A stretch of 64,000 bases of DNA from Ectocarpus siliculosus (taxonomy: Eukaryota; Sar; Phaeophyceae; Ectocarpales; Ectocarpaceae), in the NCBI GenBank assembly GCA_000310025.1, contig FN649727.1, forward strand, positions 9,150,355-9,214,354. The letters run 5' to 3'. This document shows positions 32,248 through 51,372 of the stretch, in pieces. Made by a program: the position numbers and the translations under genes. The notes under the pieces are model-generated. The model saw only the letters and a list, made by a program, of their open reading frames with translations, did no database searches and was not told the origin of the DNA. Within the stretch, counting starts at the first letter, position 1. Every line of letters starts with the position of its first letter.

Positions 32248-35200
32248 CTAAATTGCGACTTCCTTCAATAACCAGAAACCAGCGACGTCGTCCGCATCAG
32301 GATTGCTTTGCACTGCCACGAAGTGGAATCCCCCTAACGCTCGTTTCGCCTCCTCGAAACCTTGCGCTGGGAGAAAAAACACGGAGAATGTCCAAGCGAC
32401 GATTTGGAAGGGAGTGCGAGGGGGTGAAGCGGGGGGTAAATGCACATAAGGGTGCGCAGCATGAGAGAAACAAGGTCGCTCACCAGTTGTGCTAGTGGAA
32501 CACATCGGATATTTAGTTTGCCGGTGGAATCAGAAGCATGCCCATTGTGTCGAAGTCACCCACACATGTAATTTCCACACCGCCTACTCCAAGTATGTAG
32601 ACGGAGCATGCAGATACTAGGACATCGATCATGCTGGATGATTCACCCCTGATTTATCTGTGGGTCGCTTGCTCATCCGCTTGCATCGTCCTTTTTCACG
32701 CCGTTGCGAATAAGCAACACACCATCGTGAACCAGCATAAGAATATGCTGGACATACGTGGAGGACGTTTACCTTCACACACGCCACCACCTCCAGGGCA
32801 CTCCAGGATGACGTCCTACAACTCACACTTGAGCATCAGACACATCACTTACTGCCGCCAGCTATTCTCTCGCTCACCTTCTTTCCGCTGGTCCCCCTGG
32901 ACTCGCGCGACAAGATACTGAGTGTTGATGCCGCACTCAAGAGCGAGTTCTCGGTTCTTGAGATCCGCCTGTCATGCCATCACACAGCCATCGCGGCGGT
33001 TGTCACGAACGAGCAGTCTGCAATGTAACCCAGCTCGCAGCTACTCCAATACACGACACGACTACCGCTGTGATCCCTCCACACACGCTCTCCAAGTTCA
33101 GCATGGAGCGCACTAAACGAAGACAGCAGGAAGAGGGGGAGGGACGATTGCGAGAGGATGGACGCAACTTATGGTAGGGCTGATTCCGAGGCATTTGGGA
33201 GCATGGTTTACAGTCCCCATATCGCCGTCGCAATGTATCTAAAACAGTCTCGGCAACCCCAAGAAGCAGTCATCCATGGTGGGTGATGAACACGGCAGCA
33301 TTTTGACAGCAGTAGCTTGAGCAACTCCTTGTGTTGTCCATCTCGCGATAAACCAACGCATTCGAGGAAGCGGATATCGGTTGGAGTGCGCATCCTCCGT
33401 GTTAGCAACAGAACGCAAGCTACAGCAGCCTACCCTCGGAGATGGGACCTCAACGTGCAAGAAACAACTGCCGAACAAGCCTTACTACTATGTGTATGTG
33501 GAATTTTCCCCGGGTTGCAACATGATACTCCAACTGTACGCGAGGCCAATCTATTGCCCACCTTGAAGTAGGCCACCTCGAGGCCGGTCATCCAAGTGGC
33601 GAGGGGCTCAGCTCTCGCCGTGAACATCGCAAGCCCTGGGATCATCGCATCGTCCGGGAGGGATGCATCCAGCGGACATAGCCTGGAACCCCGGAAATTA
33701 TTCGGAACGGAAATGCCAAGTCGAGGGTGAAGACACAGCGAGCGGCAGTGGCCGTTAGATACGCCTATCGTACGACGGTCAGCAAGATATCTCTTTAGTT
33801 GAGGGGATCAGTTCGAACAAGTACCATATCTACAACTGCTGCGATTGATTGTTGGTAGTATTTACAGAGCTAAAGGGTACGAAACGGGTCGATCGAATAA
33901 CAATGGGCATACAGAGAACTCCTGCTGGACGAGAGAAAGCGCGCTCTCGAGGTCGTGGAACCTTAACCTTTCCTGAGAGAAACGAGAATCTGACTAGCAG
34001 CAGTCCAGGGTTAAGCTGGCGCCGCAGCAAGACACCAGCAGACTTGCACCACATCTCGACGCTTGTCGTTACTGTCACACTTCGCACACCTGCCGACCCC
34101 AACGTTTTCGTCATTGATGTTGCCCTGACGGAACTCGGACACCGGCATGGTCACGAAAGCGTACTGCTCTCCTCGCAGAGCATCTGGTAGAGGGGTCGGA
34201 GTCTTTGACAACGGTAGGTAATGCGACAAAGGGGCGCGCGGGGGACGAAGGCGTATGATGGTAAGCCTTGGATGGCGCTATTTTTCTATTTTCCGAGTCG
34301 CGCTTCTCAAGCTGCTCCCCACGCGTGTTTCTCTACAGCAAACTCGCGCGCGATTAGTACACACAATGTCACGGGGCCCTTGTGATGACCCCATGTTGGC
34401 AGGGTGGGGAGGTGGACGCGTTGCGTCGTCATGAGCAAAGCCGAATGCTCCGCGGCCAGGTTCGCGTTCCTCAATCTTGCATGTTTGACATAACGACATG
34501 TCGCCACCCAGCGGGGCAAGAAAGAGAAAGACAAAGACAACAAGGACGATTTGACACAACGATGTGTTGCCAACAAGGGGAGCAAGAGAGCGAAGGACAA
34601 CAGCTATGCTGTAGCCACATCATATACCCACAGACATCGAGCGCTGTCCACAGAGCAAGCGGTCCGCTTGCAGGTGTGTACACGAAACGAAACAATAACA
34701 AGATCTCACCCGAATGTCGAAGAACGCCGGTTGCTTCATGGTGGGCTTGAACCCGGCCATGGCGGGGTACACATCGCGCTCGCGCTCCTCGAGCCACTGG
34801 TACATGGCGTACGTCGTCCTGCACGGCTTGACCGCGACCTCCACCTCCTTGAGGGCGATGTCGATCATGTTGAACATGGCGTTTCGGAAGAAGCGGATCA
34901 CGGTAGGCTTCGAGCCCCCCGGCGCGGCCTCGATGACCCCCTCTATCGTCCTGCGCACCTCTCGCGAGTTCACCATGTTGCTGGGGATCGGCGAGACGTG
35001 GCGGAAGTTGCCCGTGGAGTCGCAGATGAGGAGCTCCCACAGCTTCTTACCGTCCGCCCCAACGACCGGCCTGGAGTACACGTCAAGCTCCCACTCGTTG
35101 CTGATCTTGGCGCCTGGCTTTATCGTCGTCTCCGCTCCAGCTCCAACACCCCCCTCTTTTACTGAAGGTGGCGTAGGCGACTCTGCCGGGGTGGACATGG

Positions 35201-35408
35201 ACAAGCCCGTAGAGTGCCGGCGTCGGCAGCCCTCCCTTGCCCGAACATGACACGCGGGCTGTGTCCGTGCAGGTGCTGCTGCTACTGCTGCTGCGGTCGC
35301 ATCATGTTGGTGCTGTCGCCCTGCAAGTCTTGGGGGTGCAAACGCCCCACACGGACTGGCCCATGAAGCAAGGGCTGCCACGATTATCAAGAAGCTTGAC
35401 CTTGGCAT
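32248..35408 (-). CDS. TAB2: Tab2/Atab2-family RNA-binding protein, plastid-targeted
   Basis: Homologue of the factor that activates translation of photosystem I mRNA (psaB in Chlamydomonas; PSI and PSII assembly in Arabidopsis). Five exons: 35408-34710, 34202-34090, 33682-33562, 32968-32878, 32366-32248. All are in phase and give 380 residues, close to family length. The N-terminus has a signal-peptide-like run and the heterokont motif GAFAP (Phe23), so the product should enter the plastid. Conserved blocks: NEWELDVYSRPV, KKLWELLICD, FRHVSPIP, PTVIRFFRNAMFNMIDIALK, PCRTTYAMYQWLEERERDVY, PLPDALRGEQYAFVTMP, IPGLAMFT with PLATWMTGLE, and FHFVAVQSNPDADDVAGFWL at the end. The fourth exon (ADLKNRELALECGINTQY) supplies the usual strand preceding the last block. 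The gene is divergent from the FAD monooxygenase, 676 bp between start codons. Confidence 0.93.
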
Positions 35409-36084
35409 GGTGTTGGTGATGTCGAACACAGAGCACAAGCCGCAGCTGAAGAGCTGCAGAGCACAACACAGGACAGGAGCACACAGCAACCCACCAGAGG
35501 GCGCCAGCGCGGGAGCACCGTGTGCGATTGAGAACCCCCCCCCCCCCCCCCCCTCTTGTGACCCTCCCTCATTCCCCCGTGTCGGCCGATTCGATCTGTC
35601 TCAGGTCCCCTGTCCCACTACACACGAAACTACACGCAAGACACGCTGCGCGCGTATGCAAGTCAGCGATGGTTGAACGAGCGAAGTGCTGCTCAAGGCC
35701 GGCCGTGCTACGCCGATGCAGAGTGATATCGTGCCTGGCCATCCCTGCCTTTGGGGGCGCATTGACAACGAGTCCAAATCAAGGGGTACGTCAAGACTCG
35801 CACGTTTGCCGCAAGTGCAGGTTGATCTCATGTGCCATCTGTGTGTGTCCAAACCCCTGAGATATACTATAGCGTACTCGCGTGGTTCCGTTAACAGCGT
35901 GTGCACATGATCGAGAGCGTCTCACTTGCGAAGATGAACTTGGCCTATGTCTTATGTCGCAGACTTCAAACAAACGTTTGAAAGAACACATGGAAGGTCA
36001 CGACACTGCTACATGTACTGCTGTAAGCTGTGTACGTACACTGGTGGAATAGCCTTGAGGTTGAACATTGAAGGGGGGGCCAAC
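35409..36084. promoter_or_regulatory. Divergent promoter region, Tab2 (-) / FAD monooxygenase (+)
   Basis: 676 bp between two start codons in opposite directions. It contains a C homopolymer near 35537-35553. No clear core promoter motif seen. Confidence 0.4.
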
Positions 36085-40905: not shown

Positions 40906-43900
40906 ATGCCTCCAATGCACCCAGGGCAGCAGCCCAAGCGACGAAGAAGGAGGCGCAGGCCAGGGGAAGAAGAGGAGCCTGTGCTCCGGACCACGTGTGA
41001 TGCATGCACGTCGGCAAAGGTCAAGTGAGTCATAACTGGCGTGTGTCATCTCTTGTCGGTATCATCCATGTTCAACTCGTTTTCTGCTCTGGTTTCGAGA
41101 TGTAGGGTTCGTTGAGGCTGGCTTCAAGAGGGTGATTTCAAAGCAGCCCCCCTCATCAACAACATTTTGCCTGCAATCATCAAGTCAGCGCTGAAGGTTG
41201 TTGCGCTTGCTAGCCTTGGGAGCTGCTGCCAACCTGAGTGTCTTTGTAGTGTAAGATGTGTTGGGCCAGTTTTGGCCAATTCAGTCTTCTCGGCAAACGC
41301 CCGAGGACACTTTTCTCTCGGAGATGGTGGGTCGCCGGTAATGGTATGAAGAGAGCCGGGAGAGCAAAATCTGACGGCTCACACACATACAACGCTGCTG
41401 TTTTTTGTCCCGCACGACAGCCTGCGTGTGTGCCTACGGCGGTTGCTGTAGTTCTGCCCTTGTGTCCGCGAGGTCGACTAAGCTACTCTTCGTACAGCTA
41501 TTGAGTGGGCTTCTTACAGGTTTACCAATGTTGATGTATGCTTACGTGTTTTTCAGCGGTACACGGAATGGAGTGTACCGCACAACATGTGTCCCGTGTC
41601 CAGGACGATACAGTAATATTATTGCTGTCGCCAACTGCTGTCAACCATTCCAACGGCGTTTTTTGTCATCATTGCAGCGCCGTTTAATTCTCGCATGCTA
41701 CAAATAGTTTGGTGAGCTATTGCTCGTGCGAGGTACGCCCTCACAGCAGCAGTGCCTCGCACATCGACATGGGGGCACCATCCACAGCAGCAATATTGTA
41801 TATGGTACATATTGTACATAGGCCGCACGGGTCAATGTCGCACTCTATCAATCTTTTTTACTGGAGAAATTGCGTGCAGGCGTGGCGAGTGGCAATGACC
41901 CGAGGGCTCCACTCAGGCCTACTCGGTGCCATTTTTTCGTGAGAGACACGACGTGTGCATGCGCACATTCTGCTACACCTCTGGTACCATTGCCGCCTTA
42001 CGGTCAACAAGCCCTTGTTGTGTCTCGTGTTGATGGTTTCGCCGGTGCAGCGCCCGTGGAGTCGCAGCAAAATCTCTGTGAATGGGCAGCAGCAATTCCC
42101 TTGTTGCCTCTGGCGGGGTCTCTTCTGAAATCTTGCACATTCTTGGGCGTGTGCGGCAGTTTGCCAAGTCTGTCTCTCGCTCCTGCTGTGCTTCACGCCA
42201 CCCTTGGCGCAGCCGAGGTCTCAATGCCCGTGGTCTTCCAAAACAGCAGTGGCAGGTGGCACCCTACAGAACTATTATAGTAGGAGAAACTACAGAGCAA
42301 ACAAATGGTGTGTGTGTCAGTGTCAGTTAGTCCATCAAATAAAAGGCAAACGGCGCCGACAGCTTCAGGAAGATAATGGAATTACTTTACCGAAGCCGTG
42401 CCACATTTCTCCGTCTTCCGTAGTAGGGTCGTGCAGTCACGCCTCTCATTCACAAGGCTTCCATTGAAATATGTGGATACCATCCAAAGGCTGCAACAAG
42501 TTTGTGAACAACGCGGTTGCGTCGTTAACCGCACTCATCCCTCGGGTCATCCATACGCACCCTTGCTTATCCGTTCTAAAGTACTAGAATTAGTTGTTCC
42601 GAAAGTTTTCACAAAAAAAAAAGAGTGCATCTATCTCGCTCCCTCTGCCTCAAGATTGTGGAAGATTTTCGAGAATTTTTTCCTCATGCAACAACGCGAT
42701 CTGCTCTCGGGAATTCGGGAAGTGCTAACCACCTTGGCCGGAAAAAAATGTTGGTATGCTATGCATATCGACTGCCAACAAGTTTCCCACCCTGTTCGTA
42801 TCCCAATCCCAACCCTCACGACCAGCAGTTGCACACATTGTACGTGCGCAGGTGGAGGTATTCCAGCATGGAGACATCAGTGAACATGAAGCATTTTTAG
42901 GCGAAGGTGGCATGCTCCACTTCTGCCGCGGTCTTTCAAATCCCCCTCTCATGCACTGACGGATGAATTAACAGGGATGCATGCCTATTACGCCGACGGA
43001 CGAATCATTCGTTCCGCCCTTGGTCTGTCAGGTGCAACGGCGAGAAGCCATGCGTGCGCTGCAGCAACAAGAACATCCAGTGCGAGTACACGTTCAAGAA
43101 GCGCTGCGGCCCGAAGCGGCGCAAGGGCGTCTCCGGGGACAGGAACGGCGGCCTGCTGGCTCCCTACCCGGACGGCTTGAACGGCAGCAAGGTGGTTGGC
43201 CTGAACGAGCACCTCCGCGGGGAGCCCACTACCCTCAACAAGGACGAGGTCGAGTGCGTGGACGTGTTCATGCAGAACATCAACTCCTTCCTGCCGCTCA
43301 CGACGATGGACACGGTGAAGAGGGCAGCGAAGGCGACTGCCCCTGCGGCCGGCGGCGGGGAGGGCAGCGAGGAGGAGGAGGAGGATCAGCATGACACCGA
43401 GACCGAGGAGCGCAGCCAGTTCCACCACGCAGGGAAGGCCATGCTCCACGGGGCCATCGCCCTAGGGGCGGAGTTCCTCGAGAAGGAGGAGGTGTCCGTG
43501 ACGCGTGCCGTGGCTGCCCGGGAGGAGATCAAAGAGTGGTGAGTTGCAGTGCGGAGACGGAGCGGGCCTGGCGTTGGCCCGGCGGCGCTGGGTGGGACGA
43601 TGTGTTCTTAGTGTGGATAAATAGGCGAGATGCCCCGTTGGCATGTGTGCTGGTCGACCCTTTGTCTGGCTGCTGTGTGTAGTGTTGGGATGGTAGGAAT
43701 CGATTTGCCCTCTTGGGTTGTTGGCGAGAGCGGGAGAGCCGGCTCGTTGTTGGATCCCGCCCCGCGTTTCTGACGCTGTAAATATTCAGCGCGTTATTTG
43801 GTTTCTTGTTACCGTTTCTCTGCTGGTGGCCGCTCCGTTCGATGCAGCTTCGACGCTGCAGCACCGGAGCTGGTGGCAGCGCACCTAATCCTGGCGCTGT

Positions 43901-44943: not shown

Positions 44944-46809
44944 TCTCTCTCTCGTCCTGGCTCTTCCAACACAGGTGGTGAGCAGCATAGGGTGCCTGGT
45001 GAAGCCGCCGGGGTCGTCGAACCGTGCGGGCATCCCCTCGTCCAGCAACCCTGCCGCCTGCCAGGAGCGCGTGCTCAACATCCTGAGCTACGTGTTGCTT
45101 GCGATCCACAACCGATCGTCGAGGTCCAACCTGGCGGGGAACCCCGCGATGTCGACCGGGGACTGGGATCCGAAGGCGATGACGGAGCACATCTACGAGG
45201 CTAAGGCCCTGCTGGACAAGGGGTCCGCGGGGGGCGGGCCTAACGACATCTCCCGGTGCATCGTGGTGGTCCTCCAGGCGTACTTCCTGCTGCTGACGAA
45301 CAACCGCCGGCAGGCCATCGTGATCACGGAGCCCCTGGCGGACCTGGTCGCCGACAACCCGCTCGTGCTGCGCCTGCCGATCGTCTGGTCGCTCGTAGGG
45401 TGCGTGCGCGTGCTGCTGGACGGGGCGGACCGAACGATCGCGGTGGAGCGGCTGCAGTCGGCGATGGCGCCGCTCGCCAACCACCTGGGGTTCTCGACGG
45501 ACGAGAGCCTGGTCGAGCAGGAGCTGATGAGCGTCTTCAATGGCAAGCAGGGGTTGACAAAGCGGAAGGGTGCGACGACGGCACCGTCGGCGGCGGCGGC
45601 GGCGGCTTCGGCAGCGGCGTCTCAGGACTTGGCGGCCACGACTGGCGACATCCTCGTGAGGAGCAGCAGGTGAGAGCCAGTGTAGCTTCGAGCGGCGTCT
45701 GTTGGTTGTGGTGCAGGGATGAACCAGCAACCGATTTCTTGACCTTGTATCGATGCACGTTCTGGGCTGGGGAACGCATCCAACTACTTTGAAGTGCTTT
45801 GGACTGCTGTGTTTTTTCGTGTCCTGCTTGTGACCCCCGGGCTACACCCATCCTCCGTGGAGAGGGTGGGTGGTTTCGACTAAACGGTTGTCGCTGTCCG
45901 TTGCCGTTCAAGCTCACCGTGTCGTCTTTAGCTCTTGGGGCATACACGCTACTACTGTACGTTAACCTTTCCCTTTTCGGTATCGGTGTTCCCTCAGGGC
46001 CCAGACTTCGTCCCTCAATGTGACGGCGCAAGACTACTCCCACCGTGGACGATCGACGATCAACATGCTCGCCCTGGAGCCTTCGCCGGCCCCACGACGG
46101 CGCGGTTTACCCACCTCGGCGACCAGGCAAGGTGGCTCTGCCGCCGGCGGCGGGGGCGGCGTCGCAACATCCCTCTTGTCGGCGGCGATGGTATCCTCCG
46201 GGGAACCGCCGGTGGAGGCGTCGTCCCCTCCCCCGTCGCGGGCGGGCGCGCTCACCAGGCTGCCGGCGGCCCGCGGCGGCTCGCTGTCGATCCCGACCCC
46301 TTTCGTCCCGAAGCAGGCGATGCTCCAGCTCGACATGCCGTTCATGGGCAGTTCTTTCCTGAACAACAACCCGCCCGCCGCTGTGCAGCCAGGCACGGAC
46401 GGCGTGTCGGTCATGATCAAGAGGGACCTGGGCCTGCCTCAGCAGGGCGGCCACGCCGCCGCCGCCGCCGGGGGGGGGGGGGACGAGCCGAGAGAGAGGG
46501 ACGAGACCCTGCTTGACAAGCTTGACGTGAGCCGGGCGCAGATGATGAGGGAGCAGCGGGAGCAGCAGCAGAGCTTTAGCGCCGACGCGCCGGTGCCGTC
46601 GTTGGACGAGGCTGCCGGCGAAGGGGACGGGGCCGGGCTCGAGGACGAGGACGGCCGGCAACAGAGCTTCAAGGCCGACGCTCCCGTTACCCTGGACGAC
46701 GGCGTCAAGCTCGGGGAGGACCGGAGGGAGCTCATGGCCAAGCAGCAGGTGCAACAGAGCTTCGTTGCGGACGCCCCGGTGTCTCTCGAGCAGGTGAGAG
46801 TCTCAATGT

Positions 46810-46851
<42 letters not shown>

Positions 46852-47442
46852 CAACGTGTTAGCTTGTCTTGGGTGTTTTCTGTCATGATGACATGAGACG
46901 CTGATGGTGGGCCGTGCGGTCCTCTGATGGATGCGCATGGTATCTTTGGTGTATTGAAGTCACCCGAGGGTTTCGATGAGGGATCTGTCAAGACGGCGAT
47001 TGCAAGCTACAGAGTAACTTGAATGCAACATCTGAATGCAACATCGAGAGTCGATCATAACATATCCCACTTGTTGATCTCCTAATATGTGGGATTTGAG
47101 ACGTTAACACCATAGTCCGAGACGGTAACCCATGTGGTAGGCTTGCACCTCCCGCTTTTGTAGACCTCTCCCTCAGCAGCTAAAAACATCACACGCAAAC
47201 CGCATGTGGCTGTGTGGTTGGCTCACTCTGCTTCTACCCTGGTCAGGGCCTGCCGATGCTCTTCTCATCCCCTGGTTGCTCGCTTTTCGATGCTTTCTCC
47301 GGTGCAGGTGGAGTCGAACATGGCCCGGTTGGGTGTCTCACATCCAGACGACGAAGACCAATCCAGTAGAATCGTTACTTCGATGGACCTTGAAGTGGCG
47401 GCGGAATTGTTGGCAACAAAGACAACAAGTTTCATCTCGTAG
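40906..47442 (+). CDS. Zn(2)-Cys(6) binuclear cluster transcription factor
   Basis: Likely sequence-specific nuclear DNA-binding regulator. Six exons: 40906-41024, 43032-43538, 43848-44040, 44975-45669, 45998-46793, 47308-47442; phases agree at each join; 814 residues. A basic N-terminus (KRRRRRRR, residues 11-18) precedes a canonical cluster with Cys at 31, 34, 41, 47, 50 and 57 (C-x2-C-x6-C-x5-C-x2-C-x6-C) and a basic linker (KKRCGPKRRK). The 2.0 kb intron 1 falls between Lys40 and Cys41, inside the cluster. The middle region (exons 3-4) is helical and hydrophobic (ELVAAHLILALYWTHQMD, RLPIVWSLVGCVRVLLDG) and may be a divergent version of the fungal-type middle homology region. Exon 5 is low-complexity Gly/Ala/Pro and carries three copies of QQSFxADAPV spaced about 30 residues (near 694, 724 and 755). 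The ending LLATKTTSFIS is short. Zinc clusters of this type are mainly fungal, with scattered protist examples. Confidence 0.87.
44866..44953. repeat. (CT)n microsatellite in intron 3 of the zinc-cluster gene
   Basis: About 40 CT units ending roughly 20 nt before the acceptor of exon 4 at 44975, so it also acts as the polypyrimidine tract. Confidence 0.95.
46808..46851. repeat. (CAG)n trinucleotide repeat
   Basis: About 14 AGC/CAG units just inside intron 5 of the zinc-cluster gene, immediately after the donor. Each CAG is a potential acceptor-like AG. Confidence 0.9.
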
Positions 47443-48868
47443 CGTAGAGACTCAATAATCGTCCACGTGTTTTTTTTTTGTGGCCCTCGCGCGTGTGTGT
47501 GCGTGTTCGTGGCTTCTTTTTTTTTCGGAACTAGATATCAGTGACTCGTGCATCGTGCTTTTTTTTAACTTGTTTTGTCATTTTCTGATTGTCGTTGGCT
47601 ACAGCTTGCTGCCGCGGAACAATCACGTTTTGACGTCGTCCTTGTTTTGACGTAGCGTCTATTTGTCGCGTTTATATGTCTCACTTACTTTATTGTCGTG
47701 TACAAGCGCGTGCGCGGACCCCACGCGGCGCGTTCGCTATAGCTTCGGCTCATCCGAGCAATTAGAATTCGCTTCACGAGTCCTGCTACGCGAGGGACTG
47801 GTGTTTGCCTTGTACGAACGGCAGTTTCAGTAGCAGTAGATGGCTTGCGGACGCCGATCGGTGTACGCTGTGTCACCATGTTGTCTTGGGTGTTTATATT
47901 TGACACGTTGCTGCAGATGGCGCGCCTTCTTGCCTGGCGCTGTTCCGATCGGGGAGGTTGTGTGTGCGTGCGGCGCCTGCGCTCTGTCTAGAGTATTTGA
48001 CGTGCGGGGTAGGGGTGGGGCTTGGTTGGCAATCATGAGCACTTGGCGAACATGATGGGGATGACGGTTGCGTTGCTGAAAGTGAAGCCATTTGTGGTCG
48101 TGTACATAAATTACAGAAAGTAAGGCTGCTCGTGCGCCGACGAACCATGCGTCGTTTTTTTGTCACCTGTGTTGGTTTTGTGGATGGATTTGATTGGGTC
48201 GCGTATGCACATACACGGTAGAAATTATAAGAAGGGGAACAGGTTTTTGTCGTCGTTTTGTGCACTCTGCGAGCCACAAGCCGCTGAACGGCACACGTCC
48301 AGATGTTCAACCGTTTTTCGTTCTTCCTTGGTTGTTCTTCGTACAAACGCATCGCGACAGTTTTTTTTTGCATAAATCTTAATTTGGTGCGAGTAAGTTG
48401 ACGCAGTCATTAACACATCGCTGGCTTGTGCGTCTCAAGAACCAACGCTGCGGATCGCTCGACCACGCCAATTTACCGCAGTCATGCGGGTCCGCCAAGG
48501 TCAAGGATAAATAGAGCGTGTGATGTAAATGAACACATTCAAATGCGCATGTTTCGCAAAGCTGTGTTTTGCATATCACAACATGTGGTACTGCTAGAAT
48601 ACTTCTCTGCCACCACTGGCTGATCTTTACTCCTCATCAGACCAAAACAAAAAAAAAATACGGACAAGTGCAGTCGAGAGCCCAGTGACCCCGCCTGCCC
48701 TTTCCCCAAGAAAAAAATGAACTTCGAACGGCGGCCACCTTCAGAAATGATTCGGCAACCACAGACATCCAAAACCCTGCCACATAGGGGTTAATTAACA
48801 CCTACCAGCGAGGCTAGGAGCTACTCTGGGAGAAAGTGACGAGATATCCAGCAAATAGCCCCGTCCAC
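47443..48868. other. Intergenic between convergent genes; no gene recognised
   Basis: 3' flank of the zinc-cluster gene (+) meeting the 3' UTR of the selenoprotein T gene (-). T-rich runs occur near 47470, 47520 and 47560, suggesting 3' UTR sequence. No exon seen. Confidence 0.45.
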
Positions 48869-48940
48869 CTCTAGGCATTTCAGGTCAGCACAGGACGTGT
48901 AAAGCGCCTTTCAAGTGCTGCCCGTCATTACGCCTGAGAG
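48869..48940 (-). promoter_or_regulatory. SECIS element (type II) for selenoprotein T
   Basis: Lies about 250 nt 3' of the selenoprotein T stop on the minus strand. Helix I pairs CTCT(C)AGGC with GCCTAGAG. The non-Watson-Crick quartet is ATGA (48928-48925) opposite TGAA (48882-48879). Helix II pairs CAGCAC with GTGCTG plus GG with CC across one G-A mismatch. A 5' bulge TTGAAA supplies the conserved unpaired AA. Above it a mini-stem AGGCG / CG(T)CCT closes the 7-nt loop CTTTACA. The mini-stem makes it a type II SECIS. Folded by eye only. Confidence 0.85.
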
Positions 48941-49187
48941 ACAGAAGGGGAGGCTGCTTGATCTCGGACCACTCCCGTTTCATCCCACCTCTCCTCTCCA
49001 TCAGGGTTGCTATGGTTCTCCTCCAAGTCTCCCCGCGTCCCCGTGGCAAGGCACAAGCTGGCTTATTTGTTTTTCAGTCTATACTACACGGCACAAAAGC
49101 GACACGGAAGAGGAAAATTCCACCAACGTATCTCTGCTGTTGGAACGGACGGACGTGTACCCGAAGCCGAAAAAAGAAGCAGCCGTC

Positions 49188-51372
49188 TTAGGTGGATCTG
49201 ACGCTACGCAAACCGCGCTTCTCGAACTCCCTCAACAGCAGCGCGCCGGTGGGAAACTGCCCCTCTCCTGCCAGCCGCGAGAACACCAGTTCCCCGTCGA
49301 TGGACACCTCGAAGGCGCCGGTCGCCAAAAGGGAGCCGCAGAACGAGTTCGCTACGGTAAGCCCCACTATCGTTGCCATCGGATTGCGCCGCATCACCGG
49401 TACGAAGAACGGCGCCGGGACCCCGAGCCTGTCGAAGATGAGGGAACCGAACAGGACCGAAGCCACGCCGCCCACCTGCGCGTAGGAACCGAGGGTGGCC
49501 AGGGCTTGGGCCATGGGGGGAGGGGGGTAAAGCTCCCCCCGGATGCTCTGCGCCTTGGCGAGAGCGGGGTAGTGTGCGTGGAGGAACGATCGAAGCTCTT
49601 CGAAGTTCCTCCGCATGCCTCATGACACGCAAAATTGGACCAGCACTTGCGGCACGTCGCCACCACTACCAACAGCACCAGCGCCGGTAACGGCGCCTAA
49701 ACTCGCAGTGCCGCCAAACTCTACGGAGGAATCTGCCACGGCGAGCTGCTGCGCCGCCGATCGTGCATCGTCTCTATTGCTGCTGCCGAGGCTCCCCCCG
49801 CCTGTGTTTTTGGTGGATCCGCCCATCCCGGCAAACTCATCCTCCTGCGCACGAGAAGATTGCGTGGCGTAGCGAAAACGTAGGAGGTCAGCGAGTCAAA
49901 CCAGACCCAAATCAAAGTGCACACCATTCTCTTGAACCCCCCCCCCATCCCAACACAGAAGATAACACGAACAACTTCTACCAAAAAACGCACCGCATGA
50001 CTGCTGTTGAGAGTTCAACAGGCATGTACCTAGAGATGAGGTCTGGGTGTGCCACATGCAACGTCAGAGCGAAACAGGCGTGTGACGCTTTAGGTCAACA
50101 CGCTGGCTGTTCGCTTTTCTCCGGTCTTTTCTGGCGATGACGATACTAACCCTGTTGTTCGGAAACACGCGACTCAAAATATCGTAATAGTCGGAGAGAT
50201 GGCACCGGGGTGCGCAAAAAAATACCAGAACGGCATGATTTACGTCGATTTACGCACCGGGGGGTGCGATCTCTCCGACCCCCCAAATCCAAGATTGCGC
50301 TCCTTTTCAGCTGCCGGAATGAGGTACATGTGCGTAACTTTTACACGTGGGGACGGTGTCAGCGGAGCGCCACTCCCATATGCTAATGTACGTATGCATG
50401 GTCGCGGTTTCACGCGGGATGCCAGTCGTTTTCATTTTAATTGGTATGAAGTTGCCAACCGTACACTCAACGAAACACACAACGTTCAAGCCGCACCCTA
50501 CCCCACCTTGCACAACACGAAAACACTACCAGTATGTACTGCTGCGCATGTACTGGTATCCGGAGGAAGCCCGAAACGAAAGCGGGAGATAACTGATACC
50601 GAATGTATCGTTACCTCAGAGCCGAACTCGCATCAAACACAAGACCAATTGCTGCATGGAAAGCGGTTACGTACCAGCCTACGTCGCCGTTACCGGTCGG
50701 TGTGCTTCCAACCAGCAACAACGGTACCTACACGTGGTTCTATGCTGATATCATTAGTAGTACAGATAGATGGCACCGGGGTGCGTGCGTGCATACAACA
50801 CCTCTGTCTATTTCATCGGGGATCGCACCGGTCGGAGAGATCGCACCGGGGTGCCTTGAAAATACTAAACGAACTGATTTGATTGCATTTCCGCACCGGG
50901 GTCGGAGAGATGGCACCGGGGTGCGATAAAAACACCCGAGGAAAAAACATTTGAAAAAACGATCGCACCCGGTGCCATCTCTCCGACTATTTCGGTAATC
51001 AAATAACGAAGTACTTCCTATGTAGCAACATCAACAATGGGGGTGGCGGTGTGGACAGGTTCACGAAACAGCATCCGGCGGTTACCGCAATGTCGTGACC
51101 TTGCGCCCTACTCAGCCATCAACCCACCAGACCAACATTGAAAAAGGAGAGCAGTCGCCGGGGGGAGTTGGCCCCCGCCTGCCTTGCTGACTACTAACGT
51201 ACCGGGTCGTCAATCGCTGGTCTGGCGTGGTTCATGTGCTTTGTGGGCACGATCTCGGCGAGCGGTGCGACCGGCACTTCGCGTGCTCCACTTGCAGCAC
51301 CCGCTGGTGGCTTGTCAGATGTAGCTGGAGATTTTCCTGCAGCGCCGTCCCCTACATATCGCTTGATGAACA
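49188..51372 (-). CDS. SELENOT: Selenoprotein T with in-frame UGA (Sec); 5' exon not placed
   Basis: Thioredoxin-like ER redox protein. The main exon is 49844-49188 and reads through TGA at 49622-49620, giving the CxxU redox motif in VQFCVS-U-GMRRNFEELR. This matches the SelT family, where CVSU is followed by G-RR-FEE. After it come a hydrophobic segment (VGGVASVLFGSLIFDRLGV) and the conserved C-terminal block (NSFCGSLLATGAFEVSIDGE, then FSRLAGEGQFPT), ending in TAA at 49190-49188. A SECIS element follows. An upstream exon (about 51372-51203, phase 0 at its end) joins cleanly and encodes a Pro/Ala-rich stretch. The first exon with a signal peptide was not identified; a frame starting at ATG 51921 has a phase-compatible donor but is weak. 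The intron 51202-49845 contains an 806 bp inverted-repeat element. A conventional annotation would split this gene at the UGA. Confidence 0.88.
50186..50991. mobile_element. 806 bp inverted-repeat element with six copies of a GC-rich motif
   Basis: The ends are inverted: AATAGTCGGAGAGATGGCAC on the left, and its near-perfect complement ends at 50991. The motif GTCGGAGAGAT(G/C)GCACCGG(GGTGC) recurs at about 50186 (+), 50253 (-), 50764 (+, partial), 50821 (+), 50892 (+) and 50961 (-). A 227-codon plus-strand frame (50199-50882) covers most of the element but has no recognised domain. No convincing target duplication: flanks read ATCGT on the left and TCGGT on the right. It sits in an intron of selenoprotein T. 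Superfamily unknown. Confidence 0.65.

Follow-up and report, generated by a model that had tools for sequence, protein, structure and literature searches.

The stretch of DNA singled out in the initial annotation is, almost certainly, a nuclear SELENOT gene in which an in-frame UGA is read as selenocysteine (Sec), and it is this reading, taken as a whole, that explains the locus best. Decoding of the UGA as Sec is most likely, given that a SECIS-like hairpin lies downstream of it, that a tRNA-Sec match and the exons of SepSecS are found in the genome, and that a second gene of the Rdx family also bears a UGA.

Reading frame of the SELENOT gene

The gene lies on the minus strand of the window, which is the whole 64-kb stretch of DNA that was analysed. 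Its features are as follows:

49188..49844, minus strand: SELENOT coding exon, read through the UGA, 218 residues, with the stop codon TAA at 49190-49188
49620..49622, minus strand: in-frame TGA (Sec) of the CxxU redox motif, CVS-U-GMRRNFEE, covered by both the Rdx and the SelWTH match
49236..49382, minus strand: second hydrophobic stretch and ATGAFEVSIDGELVFSRL block, residues 155-203 of the read-through protein (P0001), with the MIEN1 match at residues 172-203
49845..49895, minus strand: open frame 5' of the exon start, without ATG; possibly an intron end (GCGCAG/GAG) or 5' UTR

From 49844 to 49188, the sequence and its translation show a single interruption of the frame, the TGA at 49622-49620. 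It had been claimed that the frame is open on either side of this codon, and the coordinates and the strand given for it agree with the sequence. The position proposed for Sec, in CVS-U-G-RR-FEE, is likewise the one at which the UGA is found (CVS-U-GMRRNFEE); the CxxU motif is thus present as CVSU, with the in-frame UGA at the Sec position. Around the UGA, the read-through protein has the sequence VQFCVS-U-GMRRNFEELRSFLHAHYP, and LLATGAFEVSIDGELVFSRL is present closer to the C terminus. In the annotation of selenoproteins in general, truncation at UGA is a known problem. Here too, as had been predicted for stop-based calling, a mechanical list of open reading frames made without recoding divides the gene into two pieces, a 68-aa ORF (49826-49620) and a 142-aa ORF (49616-49188). 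The GC content at codon positions 1, 2 and 3 is 0.64, 0.50 and 0.83 on the 3' side of the UGA, and it is flat on the 5' side (0.68, 0.58 and 0.61, respectively).

On the opposite strand, an ORF of 240 codons (48903-49622) was considered and set aside; it has no Pfam match and is most easily regarded as the mirror of the coding frame.

Family assignment

The identity of the product as selenoprotein T, and a profile search of the read-through protein as a check on it, had been put forward in the initial annotation. The search was run with two profiles, and the identity is borne out by scores above the cut-offs of both: 48.3 bits for Pfam Rdx (residues 67-206; curated cut-off 22.6) and 54.2 bits for NCBIfam CXXU_selWTH (TIGR02174, SelT/SelW/SelH; residues 68-203; cut-off 34.2). 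When taken alone, the downstream half reaches 29.8 bits with Rdx and 38.2 bits with CXXU_selWTH, and the upstream half has no match to either at E up to 1. The view that the conserved block lies only downstream of the UGA holds in part. Most of the domain is indeed 3' of the UGA, but the Rdx match begins 8 residues before Sec, at residue 67 of the protein, and with the upstream piece included, 48.3 bits are reached instead of 29.8. Since the few residues before Sec bring these extra bits, one domain spans the UGA.

The protein was also aligned with a working version of the human SELENOT sequence. In this alignment, the score of the read-through protein is 149, against 53 for the best of 500 shuffles. 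For the downstream half taken by itself it is 104 (52 for the best among 200 shuffles), and for the upstream half 36 (31 for the best among 200). The alignment continues through the part that separates the active-site helix from the TGAFE block, an insert in which 19-residue hydrophobic windows (mean hydropathy above 1.2) are found within residues 114-150 and 155-182. We take such a hydrophobic insert to be the mark of SelT, as opposed to SelW and SelH. The protein shares the common thioredoxin-like family of Rdx and TIGR02174 (SelW, SelH, MIEN1) but differs from it in this respect, and because of the SelT-type insert, the profiles, which have 74 positions, extend here over about 140 residues. 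Among solved structures, the closest by sequence is that of MIEN1/C17orf37 (2ljk, E 7.6e-6), while SelW is marginal (E 0.69).

With eukaryotic SELENOT, the gene has in common the CVSUG.RR.FEE active site, the TGAFE block, the hydrophobic insert between them (as compared with the human sequence used here) and the 3' SECIS-like hairpin. It differs in its long, low-complexity N-terminal part and in the lack of a visible signal peptide in the exon; otherwise, it is ordinary. In collections of viruses and prokaryotes, none of the pattern matches, 7 in viral contigs and 95 in genome contigs, was confirmed as a relative, and tblastn against phage sequences gave no match; collections of these kinds are uninformative on orthologues.

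SECIS-like element downstream of the gene

A stem-loop, which comes in addition to what the initial annotation had observed, is present 3' of the coding exon:

48870..48937, minus strand: SECIS-like element, with ATGA (48928-48925) opposite TGA (48882-48880), an apical AAA (48911-48909), a helix II of about 10 bp and a long helix I

On the transcript strand, it reads GUAAUGACGGGCAGCAC..GAAA..GUGCUGACCUGAAAUGCC, and its core is located 259 nt past the stop codon and 691 nt past the UGA. The latter distance falls inside the mammalian UGA-to-SECIS range of 207-5207 nt that is given in PMC3316567. The GA/GA quartet and the apical AA are described in the same source as near-constant in vertebrate SECIS elements, and the SELENOT 3' element has both the GA/GA core and the apical AA.

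The Rfam model RF00031 (SECIS_1) matches the element at full length, over all 64 model positions, with the core, the AAA and the stems. The score of 18.1 bits is below the curated gathering score of 35 bits, which is a threshold of the library and not a defining feature of SELENOT. With 901 bases and 4227 families in the search, this match has an E-value of 1.9, which corresponds by division to about 4.5e-4 for a single family. The region 48960-48840 folds in RNAfold at -45.9 kcal/mol, with a z-score of -3.08, and none of the 200 shuffles was as good.

Two pattern scans were carried out. In the simpler one, the element has 8 helix-II pairs, a number that is equalled in 13% of 1000 Markov 1000-mers; at a threshold of at least 9 helix-II pairs, three other sites of the window are listed and the SELENOT element is absent. 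The fuller scan, in which the ATGA core, AA, GA and both stems were required, gave 13 matches on the two strands of the 64-kb window and 2 matches in 55,278 nt of nine other loci. Among the 13 matches in the window, none is as low in energy as the SELENOT element (-35.3, with -30.8 as the second lowest), and none has as many helix-I pairs (18, with 12 in the second best). Any match to the fuller pattern was seen in 65 of 600 Markov 1000-mers and, in a separate control, in 378 of 3000. When stricter thresholds, chosen post hoc from the SECIS-like element itself, were applied to 3000 Markov 1000-mers, one reached the energy, six reached 10 helix-II together with 15 helix-I pairs, and none reached both.

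Further downstream of the SECIS-like element, an imperfect hairpin at 48385-48483 (minus strand) is matched by the mir-1990 model at 20.3 bits against a cut-off of 63 (E 0.08). This is probably a match by chance.

Matches to parts of the selenocysteine machinery in the genome

The genome was searched as a 189-Mb assembly of 492 contigs. A single match to the tRNA-Sec model lies above the gathering score of 47; it has 69.6 bits and a UUCAAA loop (L002:1501-1586, contig C18). The other match, at 37.9 bits and below the cut-off, was rejected, since it is a tRNA-Ser according to ARAGORN. When ARAGORN was run on L002 in its bacterial setting, the tRNA-Sec match at 1501-1586 was not reported, and on the 64-kb window it gave no tRNA. 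Simple folding of L002:1502-1587, which is shifted by one base relative to the Rfam match, gives nothing better than shuffles do (z-score -0.11), and the tRNA-Sec therefore rests on the covariance model. For SepSecS, six stretches were matched in the order of the profile within 4.6 kb of one contig. Both tRNA-Sec and SepSecS are, in this way, matched in the genome that holds SELENOT.

The genome search for the SelT protein gave one match only, and no Cys copy was found in it. As regards GPx, all six matched stretches are without an internal stop; these stretches may not cover the active site, and nothing is inferred from them.

A second Rdx gene and other SECIS matches

In the genome search with Rdx, in which only the best candidates were scored, there were two matches, and each has one TGA inside. 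The second gene is SelW-like and is located on a different contig from SELENOT (L011:1474-1722, minus strand, contig C9), with its UGA in CGGU. The protein, MYCGGUGYVRFYNRL..., is 83 residues long from the first in-exon ATG; it matches SelW (2npb) at E 1e-6 and scores 36.3 bits with TIGR02174, against the cut-off of 34.2. A hairpin is found 531 nt after the stop codon (AATGACGG...AAAA...GA; -37.8 kcal/mol), and its design is that of the SELENOT element. Rfam did not list this hairpin at E up to 10.

When the genome was searched with RF00031, no match was found that reaches the gathering score. The best one (L012:1501-1569, minus strand, contig C11) has 24.2 bits and an E-value of 2.0. In the model alignment, this 13-bp hairpin shows ATGA, AAA, GA and both stems; at minimum energy, however, it folds into a long perfect hairpin in which the AAA is paired. 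Among the same-strand open frames listed for the 6 kb before this element, no recognised selenoprotein was seen by eye.

Alternative explanations

With 143 codons intact after the UGA, the conserved block retained, a GC3 of 0.83 in this part, a SECIS-like hairpin in place and no second SelT copy found in the genome, it is very improbable that the gene is a decayed SelT pseudogene in which the UGA is a true stop, even though the part 5' of the UGA consists largely of Gly/Ser/Ala-rich sequence and, when taken alone, is matched by no Pfam profile. A changed nuclear code, in which UGA would stand for some other amino acid, is scarcely credible, and the same is said of a small intron that would remove the UGA; nothing in favour of either was found. 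Both are at odds with the finding that two different Rdx-family genes have their UGA where Sec is expected, with the SECIS-like hairpins behind both of these genes and with the tRNA-Sec match in the genome. Conserved residues directly flank the UGA, and an intron that removed it and spared them would, as judged by eye, need to be of about 10 nt.

The 5' end of the gene allows more than one reading, all of them compatible with Sec. The first in-frame ATG of the exon is at 49826-49824, in the context GCCGGGATGG, which is presumably a strong start context by Kozak rules. On its 5' side, the frame continues to a TGA at 49898-49896, with no further ATG seen by eye, and the open frame comprises 235 codons. 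A CAG stands directly before 49844, the exon start of the initial annotation, and, going by its sequence, it could be a splice acceptor. Human SELENOT carries an N-terminal signal peptide. In the exon studied here, a signal peptide is not seen because the hydropathy scan gave no 19-residue stretch with a mean above 1.2 that starts before residue 114; it is either supplied by an upstream exon or absent in this lineage.

As a variant of the SELENOT reading, the protein might start at 49826 (MGGSTKNTGGG...) with an unusual N terminus, i.e., a Gly/Ser/Ala-rich leader, and be inserted via its internal hydrophobic segments only. Such a start is possible but doubtful: the strong context of the ATG (by Kozak rules) and the hydrophobic 19-residue stretches beginning only from residue 114 speak for it, whereas the CAG before 49844 could end an intron, and an upstream exon might encode the signal peptide. 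It is rather unlikely that the lineage has evolved a SelT variant of its own, in which the signal peptide would be lost, a leader rich in Gly, Ser and Ala and about 60 residues long would be present, and the membrane insertion or the compartment would be unlike those of animal SELENOT.

Other features of the window

Elsewhere in the window, at 34623-35600 on the minus strand, lies an exon whose N-terminal domain is Tab2/Atab2-like (115.2 bits). Going by its function, this domain is presumably a pointer to a photosynthetic eukaryote; the host is probably an alga and conceivably a brown one. In a predicted ORF at 46020-46862 on the plus strand, a QQSF-x-ADAPV motif occurs three times at intervals, and serines form a run close to the end; the open frame that encloses it has no Pfam match. 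At 42967-43539, also on the plus strand, there is an open frame with a GC3 of 0.87 and a sub-threshold match to the Zn(2)-Cys(6) cluster (18.9 against 21 bits).

Proposed decoding and significance

In eukaryotes, the SECIS element binds SBP2, EFsec carries the Sec-tRNA, and UGA is translated as Sec. For the SELENOT gene described here, the UGA would stand at codon 75 of the exon in the mRNA, and the SECIS hairpin in the 3' UTR, bound by SBP2 and EFsec, would recruit Sec-tRNA(Sec). The ribosome would then insert selenocysteine at the UGA and translate 143 further codons up to the TAA. The predicted product belongs to the thioredoxin-like (Rdx) proteins and combines a CxxU redox centre with the SelT-type hydrophobic insert; its probable role is that of a membrane-bound oxidoreductase in the ER. 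As described in PMC12084338, a hydrophobic domain anchors SELENOT in the ER membrane, and the thioredoxin-reductase-like activity of SELENOT is centred on Sec.

According to PMC7539508, SELENOT is among the most widespread of the algal selenoproteins, more than half of the 36 algal genomes surveyed contain its Sec form, and brown and yellow-green algae have 5-6 selenoprotein genes. Because SELENOT is so widespread among algae in that survey, the gene is most likely an ordinary further member of a well-known family, and it may already be listed there. Through the present analysis, a gene model that would be split by stop-based calling is corrected, and an algal genome gains one Sec-type SelT together with its SECIS. 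The results also suggest that SECIS elements of this lineage are missed at the Rfam SECIS_1 threshold. The biology of the gene is that of the known family.
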